DNA from: Candidatus Cloacimonadota bacterium
GTDB lineage: Bacteria; Cloacimonadota; Cloacimonadia; Cloacimonadales; TCS61
Assembly: GCA_014382915.1 (NCBI GenBank)
Contig: JACNIV010000086.1
Span: 1 to 5,556, forward strand
Reading direction: 5' to 3'
DNA: 5,556 nt
The notes beneath the pieces were generated by a model. The model had not been told where the DNA came from and did no database searches. It was given only the letters and a program-made list of their open reading frames with translations. Of this stretch, positions 245 to 5,556 are shown piece by piece (within the stretch, counting starts at the first letter, position 1; each line of letters begins with the position of its first letter). Position numbers and translations under genes: made by a program.

Positions 245-2056
245 ATGAAGGTAAAATGGAGAGTAGTTTTCATATTTGTTTCTGTAATGCTGGTAGGAAT
301 ATTTATCAGTTGTTCAGACAGTCTGGATAAAACTACTTCCTTCGATAAGCTTATGCGCGTGGAATATTCCAATTGCACGGGCTGCCTGGAATGTGTCATT
401 GATTTCAGTTGCCCCGAGAGTGCCATCAAAATAGATGAGCGCATGCAAACCGTTTACATCGATGCAGACCTGTGTACACAATGTATGGATTGCATAAATC
501 TTTTTAACTGTCCTGATGATGCTTTCACCATCCAGCCCGATGAAGTGGGACCTGCCAGCATAGACGACTTTACAGCGTTTTCCGATTCTATCGGTAAACT
601 GAATTTTCAGTTTACAGCTACGGGAGACGATTCGCTTTCGGGTCGTGCTTACAGATATGAACTTACTTTGAAAAAAGTGGGTGGAGAAGTTTTGGAACCT
701 GAGTTTGAGATACCTCTTCCACCAATTGCCGGAACTTCGGAAAATTGGGAAATTAATGATCTTCCTGAGTTTGAACTGATCACTGTTGAATTGCAGGCAT
801 TCGATGAGATAGATCATCCCTCTCCGATGAGCAGTACTCAAATTACAATAATGGGTGCGATCATCGATACAATTCCTCCTTCATCTATTCAGGATATCAT
901 CATAGATAATATTGAAATGAGTTCTTTCCGTTTGAACTGGCTTGCTGTGGGAGATGACGGCATGGAAGGAACAGCAGCTTCCTATATTATAAAGATCCAC
1001 ACAGAAGAGATCACGGAAGAGAATTGGGAAGGTCTTCCCGCATATGAACAGAATATGATCCCGCAACCTTCCGGTTCCCCGGAGCATTTGGTTATTATCG
1101 ATCTGGAACCTGAAACAGATTATTTTGCTGCTATCAAAGCGGTGGATGAAGCGAATAATATTTCCACACTTTCTAATGTAGAACAGGCTACCACTTCGGA
1201 AATACCGGATACTACACCACCTTCTACTATTACAGATCTAACTGCCACTCCAACCGAACTGGATATTACGCTCACCTGGACGTCTCCCGGTGATGATGGC
1301 AACGTGGGAACAGCTTATAATTATGAGATCAGGATTTATGAAAATGAAATTACGGAAGAGAACTGGGAAAATGCCGAACTTCTACCGGGACCTCCCTGGC
1401 CTCTGGAAGCAGGTTCTCTGCAGGATTACCTGGTAGAAGATCTGGAACATGACATCACATATTATTTTGCCATCAAAGCCTTCGATGAAAGCCAGAATAT
1501 TTCGGAACTTTCCAATGTACCTTCTGCCATGCTCATTGAAGATATTATTCCGCCATCCGATATAACGGATCTGCAGGTTGTGGAAGGTTATACTCCAAAT
1601 CTTCATACGATCACTATCAGATGGACCGCACCCGGGGACAATGGTAATGTGGGTACTGCCGCCTATTATGACATCCGGTATGCCCTGGAGCCGATAGATG
1701 AAAATAATTGGGATGATGCAATAATAGTTAACAATCCGCCCGATCCCGAACCAGCCGGTACTCTTCAGAATTGCAGTATTACAGGATTGGATGCAGCTAC
1801 AATATACTACTTTGCCATCAAGGCTTTTGATGAGAATAATAACAGCAATAATGTTTCAAATTCACCCGGCGGGAAATTAGTCTATCAGATCAATACTGCT
1901 GCTTGTATTAATTGCAGTAATTGTATTAACGATTGCCCGATCGGTGCAATACATCAGGGACCGGGTTACAAATATATCGATCCTGATCAATGCGATGCCT
2001 GTGGAACATGTACTTGTCCGTATGGATTGATATTCAGAGCTGTGGTTGCTTATTAA
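245..2056 (+). CDS. Predicted lipoprotein with terminal ferredoxin-like modules flanking about four FnIII domains
   Basis: The 603-aa product starts with a lipoprotein-like signal peptide: basic MKVKWR, a hydrophobic run to residue 21, then F-I-S-C with C23 as the likely lipidated residue. Residues 40-97 form a ferredoxin-like module with two cysteine motifs (C44, C47, C50, C56 and C77, C80, C83, C89). In both, the third-to-fourth spacing is five residues instead of the usual three. Residues about 101-545 hold a divergent and then three clear FnIII-like domains, with linkers at 210-216, 324-330 and 435-441 (PPS followed by I/T) and recurring GDDG..GTA and EITEENW motifs. Residues 548-603 form a second module: C554, C557, C560, C564 (normal spacing) and C583, C586, C589, C591 (only one residue between the last two). 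There is no twin-arginine motif. It probably binds Fe-S clusters outside the cytoplasm and acts as an extended redox or adhesion protein; the function is inferred. A 154-nt hairpin-rich gap separates it from the next operon, which also encodes exported ferredoxins. Confidence 0.88.
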   Translation: MKVKWRVVFIFVSVMLVGIFISCSDSLDKTTSFDKLMRVEYSNCTGCLECVIDFSCPESAIKIDERMQTVYIDADLCTQCMDCINLFNCPDDAFTIQPDEVGPASIDDFTAFSDSIGKLNFQFTATGDDSLSGRAYRYELTLKKVGGEVLEPEFEIPLPPIAGTSENWEINDLPEFELITVELQAFDEIDHPSPMSSTQITIMGAIIDTIPPSSIQDIIIDNIEMSSFRLNWLAVGDDGMEGTAASYIIKIHTEEITEENWEGLPAYEQNMIPQPSGSPEHLVIIDLEPETDYFAAIKAVDEANNISTLSNVEQATTSEIPDTTPPSTITDLTATPTELDITLTWTSPGDDGNVGTAYNYEIRIYENEITEENWENAELLPGPPWPLEAGSLQDYLVEDLEHDITYYFAIKAFDESQNISELSNVPSAMLIEDIIPPSDITDLQVVEGYTPNLHTITIRWTAPGDNGNVGTAAYYDIRYALEPIDENNWDDAIIVNNPPDPEPAGTLQNCSITGLDAATIYYFAIKAFDENNNSNNVSNSPGGKLVYQINTAACINCSNCINDCPIGAIHQGPGYKYIDPDQCDACGTCTCPYGLIFRAVVAY

Positions 2057-2060
2057 TGTA

Positions 2061-2082
2061 ACTCAGACACTCTTGTCTGAGT
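2061..2082. repeat. Perfect hairpin repeat, copy 1
   Basis: A 9-bp perfect stem (ACTCAGACA with TGTCTGAGT) closes a CTCT loop, starting 4 nt after the stop of the 603-aa gene. Twenty-one bases are repeated identically at 2117-2137. No T-run follows, so a simple rho-independent terminator is unlikely, although the hairpin could protect the mRNA 3' end. It belongs to a cluster of five hairpins. Confidence 0.85.
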
Positions 2083-2090
2083 GATTGCTC

Positions 2091-2104
2091 GTTCAAGAGT
2101 GAAC
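2091..2104. repeat. Short perfect hairpin between the two repeat copies
   Basis: GTTCA (2091-2095) pairs with TGAAC (2100-2104) around AGAG. On the opposite strand it reads as a CTCT loop closed by CA/TG, the same core as the flanking copies at 2061-2082 and 2117-2137 but with different outer stem bases. This suggests a related element in inverted orientation. Confidence 0.65.
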
Positions 2105-2115
2105 AAAATACAGTA

Positions 2116-2137
2116 GCTCAGACACTCTTGTCTGAGT
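2116..2137. repeat. Perfect hairpin repeat, copy 2
   Basis: CTCAGACA (2117-2124) pairs with TGTCTGAG (2129-2136) around CTCT; an outer G-T pair extends the stem. It is identical to copy 1 over 21 nt, in the same orientation and 55 nt away. The similarity is far beyond chance and indicates duplication or insertion of a small palindromic element. Confidence 0.85.
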
Positions 2138-2145
2138 ATAAAATC

Positions 2146-2173
2146 TTGTCTCCAAGCTTCAGCTTGGAGATAA
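2146..2173. repeat. Long palindrome with a TC centre
   Basis: TCTCCAAGCT (2149-2158) and AGCTTGGAGA (2161-2170) are exact reverse complements around TC. The stem extends outward by a G-T wobble and two T-A pairs to 2146-2173. In RNA the tip would open to a larger loop, leaving at least 8 bp of stem. CCAAGCT..AGCTTGG palindromes are common REP-like intergenic elements. No poly-T follows. Confidence 0.8.
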
Positions 2174-2180
2174 TGGTGCA

Positions 2181-2202
2181 TTCCAAAGCAGGAGCTTTGG
2201 AA
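2181..2202. repeat. Hairpin directly before the ferredoxin operon's ribosome binding site
   Basis: TTCCAAAGC (2181-2189) pairs perfectly with GCTTTGGAA (2194-2202) around AGGA. The 3' arm ends 2 nt before the AGTAGG ribosome binding site and 17 nt before the ATG at 2220. If transcribed, the structure sits in the leader of the ferredoxin mRNA and could influence translation or RNA stability. Similar TTCCAAAGC/GCTTTGGAA palindromes are, from memory, frequent dispersed repeats in bacterial genomes. Confidence 0.8.
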
Positions 2203-2204
2203 CG

Positions 2205-2210
2205 AGTAGG
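2205..2210 (+). promoter_or_regulatory. Ribosome binding site selecting ATG 2220
   Basis: AGTAGG lies 9 nt before the ATG at 2220. The alternative in-frame TTG at 2211 would directly abut this site with no spacer, so ATG 2220 is preferred and the protein is 81 rather than 84 residues. Confidence 0.6.
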
Positions 2211-2219
2211 TTGAAAAAA

Positions 2220-2465
2220 ATGAAAAAGAAATTACTCTTGTTTGCTGGAATATTAATCGTAGCTCTCACGCTTTTTGCAATTACAAAAAGCACCATTTTT
2301 ATTGAATCAAAATTATGTGTGGGGTGTGGGGATTGTGTTGCAGTATGTCCGGTCGATGCGATCCGGATAATCGATAGGAAAGCAATTATAGATGCCGCAG
2401 CATGCATAGATTGTGAAATTTGCATAAGAAGTTGTACCTATGATGCAATCAGGAAAAATAAATGA
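2220..2465 (+). CDS. Exported or membrane-anchored 2[4Fe-4S] ferredoxin, 81 aa
   Basis: Residues 1-22 are a short basic start (MKKK) followed by a hydrophobic stretch, reading as a Sec signal peptide or an N-in membrane anchor. No lipobox Cys and no twin arginine are present. The rest is a compact bacterial-type ferredoxin with two CX2CX2CX3C motifs: C33, C36, C39, C43 followed by Pro, and C62, C65, C68, C72 followed by Thr. By family knowledge each motif gives three ligands to one cluster and one to the other, forming two [4Fe-4S] clusters. Positive charges on the N-terminal side imply that the Fe-S part lies in the periplasm. It probably shuttles electrons between envelope proteins. Its stop overlaps the next start (ATGA), so it is translationally coupled with another ferredoxin. 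An in-frame TTG at 2211 is a less likely start. The partners are inferred from the operon only. Confidence 0.85.
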   Translation: MKKKLLLFAGILIVALTLFAITKSTIFIESKLCVGCGDCVAVCPVDAIRIIDRKAIIDAAACIDCEICIRSCTYDAIRKNK

Positions 2466-2704
2466 AAAAAATAATATTACTGGTTATATTATTTGGAATT
2501 CTTATTTATATTGGTTGTGATAAAGTAAGCAATCTGGAATATAATATAGATTCGAGTGCCTGCAATTCCTGCGGAGAGTGTATCCAGATCTGTCCGGTGG
2601 ATGCTATCGAATTTGGCTCGGACGGTAAAGCTGTGATAGATCAAACCAAATGTAACCAGTGCGGAAAATGTGTTACTATTTGTCCTAAGGATGCAATTCA
2701 TTAA
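2462..2704 (+). CDS. Predicted lipoprotein 2[4Fe-4S] ferredoxin, 80 aa
   Basis: Residues 1-18 form a lipoprotein-type signal (MKKI, a hydrophobic core, then Y-I-G) with C19 as the probable lipidated cysteine. The -3 Tyr is not the usual Leu, so lipidation is likely rather than certain. Asp follows at +2, which in E. coli would favour inner-membrane retention; whether that rule holds here is unknown. Two canonical motifs follow: C34, C37, C40, C44 with PVDAI, and C64, C67, C70, C74 with PKDAI. All eight ligands of a 2[4Fe-4S] ferredoxin are present. The length fits a minimal ferredoxin plus signal. AGGA at 2451-2454 lies 7 nt before the ATG. The gene overlaps the upstream ferredoxin by 4 nt and is followed after 13 nt by the barrel gene. 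It is a probable periplasm-facing electron carrier, with an unknown donor and acceptor. Confidence 0.86.
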   Translation: MKKIILLVILFGILIYIGCDKVSNLEYNIDSSACNSCGECIQICPVDAIEFGSDGKAVIDQTKCNQCGKCVTICPKDAIH

Positions 2705-2707
2705 AAC

Positions 2708-2710
2708 AGG
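2708..2710 (+). promoter_or_regulatory. Weak ribosome binding site selecting ATG 2718
   Basis: AGG lies 7 nt before the ATG at 2718. An upstream in-frame GTG at 2670 would overlap the ferredoxin gene by 35 nt and put 16 residues ahead of the signal peptide. The ATG start gives a normal signal sequence at the N-terminus. Confidence 0.45.
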
Positions 2711-2717
2711 CAGCAGA

Positions 2718-3947
2718 ATGAGAAAAATCATATTGATCCTGCTGGTTATCATTTTTACTTACCTTCATCTGTGCGGGTTAACTCAATGGATGCAGATTTC
2801 ATTGAGGAATTTTACAACAGATGCCGAACATGATATTGATATAATAACCGGAGCTACCCCCCAGGCAGAAACTATAGATACTGCTTCCAAAGATGGAATT
2901 TACTGGCAGCATGAGATCAGCGGTAACTTGTACACAAATCTCTCATTTACATTGGAAAATGATCTTTTCGTCTCGGATCTGAGTCATGAATTCAAGAATT
3001 CATTTTTCTACAACGATGCCAAGATTAAAGTTTACTACCAGAATGAGTCACAATACCTCAAACTTCAATATGCCAACCGAACTTATAATCCTGCAGCTAC
3101 GAATTTCTTGAATATCCCCGGCGTGGAGCATAGTACACAGCAGCAGATGGTTCATAACACAGCATTACATTACAAAGGACATCATGGACGTTTTTTTATC
3201 TCTTTATATGGAAATCTCAGGAATCTTGATTATGAGTATTTAACCATTGAAGAGGATGATGTATATGAATCCGAATCTGCCTGGGATAACGATATCTATT
3301 CTTATGCAGAATTTTCTTATAAAATAACTGATATATGGAAGGCTTTTGTCAGCGGCTATTATAAAGATGACCTGAACAGTTTTAATGAATTTGATGATTC
3401 AAATCTTGGCATTGGATTGGAATTCGATAACCGTTTTGATTTCTTTAATGCTGTAAAGACTAAGGTAGTTTATTATAATAAAAATTTCGATAGCATCGAT
3501 GACGAAAAAGACCATTATTTCTTAACTGAAGCCAGATATACAAAACGGTTTGGAAATTCACTGACCGGGTTTGTAACGTACATAAATCGTTCGTGCTATG
3601 ATGAGGATCAATCTAAATTCTTCCGTATTTCTAACATGCTGCGCATTCATGCAAAATACAGCTATTTAACGTATAATATGAAGGATTCGTTCATTCTGGC
3701 GGGAATTAAATATAATCCCGAAAATGAAGGAAATCTGGTATTCGGGGAAATGAACCAATATCTGTTCAAAGATGTTTATCTAACTGCCGGAGTTAAATAT
3801 GCTAATGAGCTTTTTGGCACCTGTTCTGCTAAATGCGAGTATTTTGTAACCCCGCTCAGATCTATCTGGATCAATAATAAATTTACCAATTTTAATAAAA
3901 AATCGACCCAGAATATTTTCTCTTTGGGTACAACTCTTATCTTCTAA
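2718..3947 (+). CDS. Predicted outer-membrane beta-barrel with N-terminal FMN-attachment-like motif
   Basis: The product has 409 residues from ATG 2718. Residues 1-20 are a Sec signal peptide. Just behind it, residues 41-47 read D-I-I-T-G-A-T, matching the Dxx(S/T)GA(T/S) pattern at which ApbE-type transferases attach FMN to threonine in NqrC/RnfG-like domains. The remainder of an FMN-binding domain is not recognisable. From about residue 63 the sequence is a series of alternating aromatic and polar amphipathic stretches with acidic turns, ending in L-G-T-T-L-I-F. A terminal Phe and this pattern are typical of BAM-inserted outer-membrane barrels, here perhaps 14-16 strands. Cysteines C293, C369 and C373 are unusual for a barrel. 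I do not recognise a named family. It lies between two exported ferredoxin genes and a DsbD-like gene, which suggests a role in envelope redox traffic or as a porin for a small substrate. The barrel call is solid; the flavin idea is a hypothesis. Confidence 0.78.
   Translation: MRKIILILLVIIFTYLHLCGLTQWMQISLRNFTTDAEHDIDIITGATPQAETIDTASKDGIYWQHEISGNLYTNLSFTLENDLFVSDLSHEFKNSFFYNDAKIKVYYQNESQYLKLQYANRTYNPAATNFLNIPGVEHSTQQQMVHNTALHYKGHHGRFFISLYGNLRNLDYEYLTIEEDDVYESESAWDNDIYSYAEFSYKITDIWKAFVSGYYKDDLNSFNEFDDSNLGIGLEFDNRFDFFNAVKTKVVYYNKNFDSIDDEKDHYFLTEARYTKRFGNSLTGFVTYINRSCYDEDQSKFFRISNMLRIHAKYSYLTYNMKDSFILAGIKYNPENEGNLVFGEMNQYLFKDVYLTAGVKYANELFGTCSAKCEYFVTPLRSIWINNKFTNFNKKSTQNIFSLGTTLIF
2838..2858 (+). 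other. Candidate flavinylation motif (DIITGAT) in the barrel protein
   Basis: The codons for residues D41 to T47 of the barrel protein spell D-I-I-T-G-A-T, with T47 as the would-be FMN acceptor. It is seen directly in the sequence. The family pattern is from knowledge of NqrC/RnfG FMN_bind domains, where the acceptor is usually followed by T-S; here P-Q follows. No ApbE gene is in the window. Confidence 0.4.
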
Positions 3948-3950
3948 GGA
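3945..3950 (+). promoter_or_regulatory. Ribosome binding site overlapping the barrel stop codon
   Basis: TAAGGA combines the stop codon of the barrel gene with a Shine-Dalgarno core 5 nt before the ATG at 3956. This indicates cotranscription and probable translational coupling of the two genes. Confidence 0.6.
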
Positions 3951-3955
3951 TCTAT

Positions 3956-4954
3956 ATGCTGCAAACACTGATCGAAGGATTTATACTGGGACTTTCCACA
4001 GGTACGATATGCCTGATGACCTGTACTCCCATCTATTTGCCATATCTAATTTCGGAAGATAGAAAGTTGAGCAAAGGCATTTTAACCGTAGTAGAAATTT
4101 CGGCGGGTAGATTCTTATCTTACCTGGCTTTTGGGGCTGTGGCTGGCTATACCGGTGCGCAGATCAGTTCGATCGATCGTGAATTATTTACTTCCATCGC
4201 ATATATTTTGCTGTCTGCTTATCTGGTTCTTTCGGCAGTACGTACCAGGAAAAAAGAAAAAAAATGTCACATTCCCAGGATAACAAAATTTACAAAAAGT
4301 GCATTTCTTTTAGGAATTCTTACGGGTATCAGTTTCTGCCCTGCATTTCTGATCGCTCTTTCCAAGGCAGTTAATCTGGGTGGTGCTTTCAGCGGGATGA
4401 TGCTATTTCTGGGTTTCTTCTTTGGTACTTCGGTATTCCTCTTGCCGCTTGCCTTTGTAGGTCAGCTTTCTAAAATTCAAAAAATGAAAATGATCGCTCA
4501 GATCGCTTCTGTTTTTATTGCTGTATGGTTCACGTTCAGTGGAGTGAAGGGATTGGTTCATACTTATGAACACAAAAAGCTGGAAGATCAACCCGGACGC
4601 ATTGTGGAAGCGTTCCATCCCCATAAACCGGTTATTGTTTTTTCTTCGGAAGAGAACAGGGGATATTTTTCTGCTGTACGCGATTCTTCAGCAAAATATC
4701 ATTTAAACCAGATTAAATTCATGGTTTATGAAGAATCTGCAATAGATACGATGAATGCTGCTGATTATATCCTTTTTGTGGACTCCAGTCTGCTGGAAGA
4801 TAAGAGAATTGAGAAACATCTGGAAAAGTTCGATTATTTCTTTATCGAAAATGGCTATCCTATTACCCGGATGTTGAACTTCCTGCGAGTTTATACATTC
4901 AAAACACACAAGCAGGTTCATTGGGAATTTAAGGAAAAAGAGTTAAATAAATAA
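3956..4954 (+). CDS. DsbD/CcdA-like six-helix membrane protein with C-terminal soluble domain
   Basis: The 332-aa product has six hydrophobic segments at about residues 5-31, 41-66, 77-96, 115-136, 145-168 and 178-200. Segment 1 carries C19, C23 and P25-P29 (T-I-C-L-M-T-C-T-P) and segment 4 carries S-F-C-P with C128. This paired-Cys arrangement in helices 1 and 4 is that of the DsbD/CcdA superfamily (the DsbD_2 or UreH-like branch, often annotated as sulfite exporter TauE/SafE). These proteins pass reducing equivalents from cytoplasmic thioredoxin to the outside. Lys/Arg-rich loops 33-40, 97-113 and 170-178 predict both termini outside. Residues 205-332 look like an alpha/beta domain but contain no Cys, unlike the thioredoxin-like end of DsbD. 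The gene starts 8 nt after the barrel gene and is the last of the operon. A metal or sulfur transporter role is an alternative, but the Cys pair and the exported ferredoxin neighbours favour electron transfer. Confidence 0.78.
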   Translation: MLQTLIEGFILGLSTGTICLMTCTPIYLPYLISEDRKLSKGILTVVEISAGRFLSYLAFGAVAGYTGAQISSIDRELFTSIAYILLSAYLVLSAVRTRKKEKKCHIPRITKFTKSAFLLGILTGISFCPAFLIALSKAVNLGGAFSGMMLFLGFFFGTSVFLLPLAFVGQLSKIQKMKMIAQIASVFIAVWFTFSGVKGLVHTYEHKKLEDQPGRIVEAFHPHKPVIVFSSEENRGYFSAVRDSSAKYHLNQIKFMVYEESAIDTMNAADYILFVDSSLLEDKRIEKHLEKFDYFFIENGYPITRMLNFLRVYTFKTHKQVHWEFKEKELNK

Positions 4955-5022: not shown

Positions 5023-5322
5023 ATGCAAAATATAAAGTCAAAAGAAAAGTTAGAAATATTAAGAGAACTAAAAAAAACTATTCTTCAGGATTATTATGTA
5101 AAACAAATCGGGATTTTTGGATCATATATCAGAGGTGAAGAGAGTATAGAAAGCGATTTAGATATTTTGGTAGAATTTGAAAAACCGATAGATATTATTA
5201 AATTCATGGAGTTAGAAAGAACTCTTTCTAAATATTTAAATGCTAAAGTGGATCTTGTTAGCAAAAAAGCTTTAAAAACCTTCATCGGAAGAAGGATATT
5301 ACAGGAAGTGATTTATGTATAG
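5023..5322 (+). CDS. mntA: MNT-type nucleotidyltransferase antitoxin (MntA family)
   Basis: The 99-aa product is a minimal nucleotidyltransferase. The catalytic signature GSX10DXD is complete: G33-S34 in I-F-G-S-Y-I-R-G, then D45 and D47 in S-D-L-D-I-L-V, with a third acidic residue at D77 in K-V-D-L-V. In characterised HepT-MntA systems this enzyme AMPylates a tyrosine of the HEPN toxin and so blocks its RNase activity. The length is normal for the family. Its last 8 nt overlap the start of the downstream HEPN gene, the standard arrangement. Codons are visibly richer in A and T than in the redox genes upstream, and no obvious Shine-Dalgarno site is present, in line with a horizontally moved module. 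The family call is strong; the activity is inferred. Confidence 0.9.
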   Translation: MQNIKSKEKLEILRELKKTILQDYYVKQIGIFGSYIRGEESIESDLDILVEFEKPIDIIKFMELERTLSKYLNAKVDLVSKKALKTFIGRRILQEVIYV

Positions 5323-5556
5323 AAGGGATTTTCGAGATTCGTTACTGGATATCTGGAAAGAATTAGAACACATAGAAGAATTTTCGACAAATCGTGATCA
5401 CAAAGAGTTGATTAAAGATGAAAAAACATTTTATGCAATTGTAAGATGTTTAGAAATTATTGGAGAAGCAGTAAAGAATATTCCCCAGGAAGTTAGAGAG
5501 AAATATAATAATATTCCTTGGATAGATATAGCAGGAATGAGAAATAAATTAATCCA
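5315..5556 (+). CDS. hepT: HEPN-domain toxin (HepT, DUF86), 3' end beyond window
   Basis: An ATG at 5315, overlapping the antitoxin gene by 8 nt, opens a frame that runs to the window edge, giving the first 80 residues. The sequence is helical and charged, with the family's C-L-E-I-I-G-E-A-V-K block (residues 45-54) and P-W-x-x-I-A-G-M-R-N-K-L-I at 68-80. In HepT proteins the catalytic motif is RX4HXY starting at such an Arg (here R76); the His and the Tyr that is AMPylated would lie just past the last base. The final bases CA are compatible with a His codon. It is expected to be an RNase toxin neutralised by the MntA product. The full length is usually about 110-140 residues, so some 30-60 are missing here. 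Confidence 0.88.
   Translation, partial: MYRRDFRDSLLDIWKELEHIEEFSTNRDHKELIKDEKTFYAIVRCLEIIGEAVKNIPQEVREKYNNIPWIDIAGMRNKLI

Follow-up and report, generated by a model that had tools for sequence, protein, structure and literature searches.

Exported-type ferredoxins encoded beside an outer-membrane barrel: a candidate envelope electron-transfer module in Cloacimonadota

What could ferredoxins do outside the cytoplasm, next to a β-barrel of the outer membrane? This question is raised by a stretch of DNA of 5556 bases, called the window throughout, which is the entire contig C86 of a Cloacimonadota metagenome-assembled genome (the host; 1.98 Mb, 77.8% complete). Five genes on its plus strand, between positions 245 and 4954 and with intergenic spacings of 163, −4, 13 and 8 nt in gene order, encode a ferredoxin with fibronectin III (FN3) units, two short ferredoxins termed FdB and FdC, a barrel and a DsbD-like membrane protein (D). 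Judged from the sequences, there is about an even chance that this module is a cytochrome-free envelope electron-transfer set of Sec-exported ferredoxins. Its genes are the following:

245–2056, plus strand: FN3-ferredoxin, a lipoprotein of 603 amino acids (PF00041, E 8.1e-16; several Fer4 models above cut-off)
2220–2465, plus strand: FdB, an exported-type 2[4Fe-4S] ferredoxin of 81 amino acids (Fer4_7, E 5.7e-13)
2462–2704, plus strand: FdC, a lipoprotein-type 2[4Fe-4S] ferredoxin of 80 amino acids (Fer4, E 4.8e-15)
2718–3947, plus strand: outer-membrane β-barrel of 409 amino acids from an unnamed family (AlphaFold2 model with matches to outer-membrane barrels)
3956–4954, plus strand: D, a DsbD-like membrane protein with a C-terminal α/β domain predicted to be periplasmic (PF13386, E 9.9e-20)

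Ferredoxins with export-type leaders

A preliminary description of this DNA had noticed three ferredoxin genes with export-type leaders and four motif pairs, followed immediately by a barrel and a DsbD-like gene, and all of this is borne out. Eight cluster motifs form four pairs, located at 374–412 and 473–511 and again at 1904–1936 and 1991–2017 in the FN3-ferredoxin, at 2316–2348 and 2403–2435 in FdB, and at 2561–2593 and 2651–2683 in FdC; Pfam ferredoxin models exceed their cut-offs in all three proteins, and the last two genes follow at the short spacings given above with a barrel model and a PF13386 match, respectively. The FN3-ferredoxin has a two-cluster head at either end (374–511 and 1904–2017) with fibronectin III units in between, and 16 of its 18 cysteines are ligands. 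FdB has 8 cysteines and FdC 9, namely eight ligands and the lipobox cysteine. The N-terminal head of the FN3-ferredoxin has two CX2CX2CX5CP motifs, whose eight cysteines are all invariant in 11 aligned relatives, and the C-terminal head ends with the compact CX2CX2CXCP in the window and its near kin and with CX2CX2CX3CP in others. Between the heads, 2 to 12 FN3 units were counted in 24 proteins with a local hidden Markov model (HMM), a few of these proteins being cut or of doubtful start. The intergenic region between the FN3-ferredoxin and FdB genes holds palindromic repeats (2058–2173), consisting of two copies of a 25-nt unit and a 13-nt inverted pair.

A lipobox-type cysteine is present in the FN3-ferredoxin and in FdC, and FdB has a Sec-like leader without a lipobox. 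Leader hydrophobicity, taken as the mean over 14 residues, is 2.95 for FdB and 3.39 for FdC and lies between 2.95 and 3.39 for all three window leaders, while the control, seven other iron–sulphur (Fe-S) open reading frames (ORFs) of the host drawn from its 49 Fer4_9 matches, reaches only −1.44 to 1.90. When all cluster loci are taken together, the leaders of 116 of the 123 Fe-S ORFs in them exceed 2.0; a further ORF, truncated at the start of its contig, had been removed before this count. Two of the seven misses read as contig-end cuts, two as frame-broken and three as wrongly started. The FdC class in this count is defined by its lipobox, which makes its 30 of 30 circular, and the fair count is the alignment, in which the lipobox cysteine of FdC is kept in all eight relatives. 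Positive residues precede the hydrophobic core of the cluster ferredoxin leaders, and a leader of the twin-arginine translocation (Tat) type was found in 1 of 123 cluster Fe-S ORFs with a strict pattern and in 5 of 87 with a looser one. Signal prediction had been proposed as the check on an extracytoplasmic location, and the leaders do point to export.

A different kind of signal is found at the other end of some of these proteins. The C-terminal domain of the type IX secretion system (T9SS; PF18962, above cut-off) occurs on cluster ferredoxins of the loci L015, L079 and L094, and the E-values of these tails are 1.2e-15 in genome G091, 4.5e-7 in G051 and 9.3e-10 in G082, which represent three genera and two families. 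The tails were seen in three of 15 distinct cluster ferredoxins scanned with Pfam (the three of the window and 12 of relatives, picked partly by length); the scan found none on the three window ferredoxins, and the window's own genus is not among the three with tails. SprA, the T9SS translocon (PF14349), was found in all ten tested genomes, including the host, G091, G051 and G082. The tails are an independent sign of export and a stronger one than the leaders. The preliminary description had called ferredoxins normally cytoplasmic, which is too broad, since NapG and other Fe-S proteins are known to be exported by Tat. The unusual part is the export of ferredoxins by Sec, as lipoproteins and by the T9SS.

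The conserved cluster and its companions

Conservation across relatives had been set as a further check, and the cluster does recur in Cloacimonadota. Its usual order is a NapH-like gene, a ferredoxin of 174–202 amino acids, the FN3-ferredoxin, FdB, FdC, the barrel and D, of which the first three and D are optional and sometimes stand in a different order. The five-gene run is more than chance, since dN/dS, the ratio of nonsynonymous to synonymous substitution rates, is 0.06–0.20 in each of the five genes (against two relatives; several dS values exceed 1, hence these are rough) and since the order persists in relatives whose barrel is 30–50% identical. In two species of one genus (L050, 1305–7644; L081, 6388–12710) the cluster is preceded by three large genes on the same strand, of about 505, 767 and 832 amino acids, the last with an Fe-S motif, which we take to resemble molybdenum hydroxylase and YgfK-type genes.

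An Fe-S ORF lies within 400 nt upstream of the barrel in 41 of the 46 barrel-family ORFs present in the loci that were read. These come from 44 genomes; the barrel of G097 lies in pieces on two contigs and enters the count as two. Four of the five exceptions are at contig ends (G060, G097, G052 and G116); the FdC frame is present in G060 at L018:161–343, and a ferredoxin is present on the other contig of G097. The fifth is a weak match of 172 amino acids in G011 (E 1.3e-5), which was kept among the 46 and is judged spurious. D follows within 250 nt downstream of the barrel in 29 of the 46, a count that leaves out G054, where D does follow the barrel and its ORF start is overcalled. Exceptions run both ways: in eleven genomes with a barrel and no D match, FdB, FdC and the barrel persist together among varied neighbours, whether or not the upstream genes are present, and in G058, G059 and G068 ferredoxin and D occur with no barrel between them. 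The core therefore consists of the barrel and the two exported ferredoxins, to which D is often added. The preliminary description had tied the ferredoxins to a DsbD-like carrier; this has to be amended, their strongest tie being to the barrel.

Among 124 genomes of the phylum, the barrel family is found in 40, the FN3-ferredoxin head in 28 (one weak; G091 is listed through a weak partial match) and D in 45, or in 23 of the 70 genomes of good quality. Fisher tests over the 124 genomes, which ignore phylogeny and genome completeness, give p 1.6e-8 for D with the barrel, 1.2e-9 for D with the FN3-ferredoxin and 1.3e-7 for the barrel with the FN3-ferredoxin.

The window barrel has no Pfam or NCBIfam match at E 1. 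Its AlphaFold2 model has 20 strands (mean confidence, pLDDT, 79; predicted template-modelling score 0.69) and resembles outer-membrane barrels, with Opd porins and siderophore receptors among the closest matches. An N-terminal insert of the barrel (window 2718–2900) carries D-x-x-T-G-A-[ST], which is like the site of flavinylation by ApbE; an [ST]GA[ST] site, which the window barrel has, is found in 7 of 30 barrels, is lost in the two nearest relatives and is present again in G079.

D scores 71.7 bits with PF13386 (DsbD_2), for which the cut-off is 24.9. Its matches yield 40 long sequences, a few of the others being remnants, and C19, C23, C104 and C128 are invariant in all 40, including those from genomes in which D stands apart. 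C19, C23 and C128 sit in the first and fourth membrane segments, as taken from the predicted structure. The loops on one side of the membrane have mean charges of +1.1, +4.8 and +2.6 and those on the opposite side −0.2, −0.6 and −0.1, from which the loop with C104 is predicted to be cytoplasmic and the C-terminal α/β domain periplasmic. Four relatives of D (P0088, P0094, P0098 and P0102) are 454–458 amino acids long and have an apparent second periplasmic α/β domain and a cysteine-bearing linker.

At least 15 clusters (12 + 3) contain a gene for a NapH-like protein with Fer4_5 domains or have one next to them, on the opposite strand in one case, and such a protein is found in 77 of the 124 genomes. 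The window is without such a gene; in the host, one lies on contig C26 in a different setting. These proteins score far under the curated cut-off of TIGR02163 (213 bits, against 62 for the host protein) and can therefore be called no more than NapH-like.

A search of the genome for cytochromes, ApbE and Rnf had also been recommended. None of the five window proteins contains CXXCH, and the host, 78% complete, has no match to Paired_CXXCH_1 (one Pfam multihaem model) and none to ApbE, which is found in 107 of the 124 genomes. RnfC is present in the host on contig C12 (E 1.1e-163), as is its sole FMN_bind match. PF12094 (DUF3570) has no match in the window barrel or in the host, and a profile comparison of the barrel with two DUF3570 proteins gave 4%. 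DUF3570 occurs in four other genomes of the phylum, with ApbE on the same contig in three and with D too in one. At two loci, L085 and L086 (G085 and G094), ApbE is followed by a DUF3570 protein, an instance within Cloacimonadota of the flavinylated system set out in PMC8238504. G094 also has the ferredoxin cluster, on a different contig from ApbE and DUF3570.

Downstream of D and outside the module, the window contains a MntA/HepT-like toxin–antitoxin pair (5023–5556). At L011 (43–2027) such a pair also follows D, with MntA 94% identical and the HepT frame broken, and a second copy of the C-terminal part of D (residues 252–329) lies beyond it, an arrangement that would fit an insertion of the pair accompanied by a duplication.

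A possible electron route and its rivals

In the most far-reaching version of the proposal, a porin–ferredoxin conduit, Sec-exported lipoprotein ferredoxins at or in the 20-strand barrel would pass electrons through the outer membrane, surface ferredoxins with T9SS tails would extend the wire, and the CcdA-like protein would keep ligand cysteines reduced while the clusters are assembled outside the cytoplasm. This version is tentative and, taken as a whole, rather improbable. In the broader proposal, to which about even odds are given, electrons would be passed out of the inner membrane by the NapH-like membrane ferredoxin, encoded elsewhere in the host genome, which is a likelier donor at this membrane than D. 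FdB, FdC and the two-headed FN3-ferredoxin would then relay them toward the barrel, at which FdC, encoded beside it, may dock; the acceptor would lie at or beyond the outer membrane, with a T9SS-tailed ferredoxin on the cell surface in some relatives. As Sec exports unfolded chains, the Fe-S clusters would need to be formed outside. By analogy with CcdA, D would most likely keep the cysteines of exported apo-ferredoxins reduced for the formation or repair of [4Fe-4S] clusters there. The envelope route without multihaem cytochromes that had been suggested for the locus stands as regards the exported ferredoxins with a barrel and the missing multihaem match (one Pfam model, incomplete host), whereas the electron path is something we infer, together with its direction, its acceptor, cluster assembly on the outside and the role of D.

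To our knowledge, the known electron routes across the bacterial envelope use haem or bound flavin. If the proposal holds, a conserved set of ferredoxins exported by Sec, as lipoproteins and by the T9SS would add a third type of carrier to these, and the conduit would be an extracellular electron path that uses neither cytochromes nor flavins. It would open to testing the question of whether [4Fe-4S] clusters are assembled outside the cytoplasm and, if so, in what way, and it would offer a candidate mechanism by which Cloacimonadota exchange electrons, a phylum named in a metatranscriptome study among those that may use conductive pili (PMC7382037).

Several observations weigh against an electron route of this kind. 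Asp or Glu follows the lipobox cysteine of FdC in most aligned relatives, and by the rule known from Escherichia coli such a residue after the lipid-bearing cysteine could retain the lipoprotein at the inner membrane. The modelled 20-strand barrel may be an ordinary porin. D is not directly behind the barrel in 17 of the 46 cases and is thus optional; it lies away from the ferredoxins in G050, G077, G079 and G084, and in G079 the FN3-ferredoxin, FdB, FdC and the barrel are on another contig than D. Across the genomes, the NapH-like protein shows a weak association with the other genes (Fisher p 0.022 with D, 0.018 with the barrel). Furthermore, we know of no machinery for Fe-S assembly outside the cytoplasm.

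These points lead to other explanations of the same genes. A periplasmic redox module, in which the ferredoxins would play the part of NapG, accepting electrons from the NapH-like protein and passing them to a soluble reductase of the periplasm, with the barrel as a porin for the substrate and no electrons crossing the outer membrane, is a possibility of some standing, though on balance unlikely. It agrees with the NapH-like genes in or beside so many clusters, with the resemblance of the barrel to Opd porins as well as to receptors, and with a barrel in which no cofactor site is known; but no reductase gene is constant in the clusters read (classes assigned by local HMM and length only), and the T9SS tails found on ferredoxins of three genera suggest a location on the cell surface. 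Alternatively, D itself could donate to the ferredoxins by carrying electrons from cytoplasmic thiols over its cysteines to the periplasm, which was the idea of the preliminary description. Its four invariant cysteines, with C104 in a predicted cytoplasmic loop, and its gene directly behind 29 of the barrels would suit this, yet D is missing beside the other 17, no thioredoxin-like gene was found in a profile scan of the window proteins, and dithiol couples are higher in potential than the usual 2[4Fe-4S] ferredoxins, so that the flow would be uphill; this reading is improbable.

The location of the ferredoxins could also be questioned, as a topology like that of RnfB exists, with an N-terminal anchor and the clusters facing the cytoplasm, and as FdB has no lipobox. 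The lipobox cysteines, the positive residues before the hydrophobic core and the T9SS tails oppose this, and it is held to be very improbable. More doubtful still is a role in the storage or scavenging of iron and sulphur at the cell surface, with the barrel importing the product. Cysteine-rich exported proteins beside a barrel with siderophore receptors among its closest matches could be read in this manner, but the relatives of the cluster ferredoxins keep the [4Fe-4S] ligand cysteines with true ferredoxin spacing, and the window barrel has neither a TonB-receptor Pfam match nor a plug in its AlphaFold model.

Comparison with known systems

No description of such a cluster was found among the matches listed in full-text searches of open-licence papers, and several known systems share a part of it. 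Porin–cytochrome conduits (MtrAB, PioAB, Pcc) likewise have an outer-membrane barrel adjoining the gene of a carrier; the carrier here is a 2[4Fe-4S] ferredoxin, and CXXCH is lacking in the window proteins. In cytochrome c maturation by CcdA or DsbD, CcdA keeps the cysteines of apocytochrome c reduced. There too a membrane thiol carrier works beside exported proteins with ligand cysteines, the difference being that apo-ferredoxins would be the clients in the present case.

Of the gene sets described so far, the nearest is that of the flavinylated systems with DsbD, DUF3570 and ApbE (PMC8238504), which comprise PF02683, DUF3570, DUF4266, a thioredoxin-like protein and ApbE. They combine a DsbD-type protein with an exported protein of about 420 amino acids, and an electron route from thiol to cofactor has been proposed for them. 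In the window, by contrast, the DsbD-type protein belongs to PF13386, the barrel is unrelated by Pfam, and ferredoxins are found with no ApbE or flavin genes. The NapGH quinol dehydrogenase and the NapH-like systems of the same source (PMC8238504) also join a Fer4_5 membrane protein to exported Fe-S partners; here, these partners look exported by Sec or as lipoproteins and not by Tat, and the NapH-like protein scores far below the curated cut-off. Finally, the Fus system (PMC6793856) likewise brings an outer-membrane barrel together with a ferredoxin, with the difference that the Fus receptor reportedly imports the ferredoxin of a host plant, while the ferredoxins of the present cluster are the cell's own.

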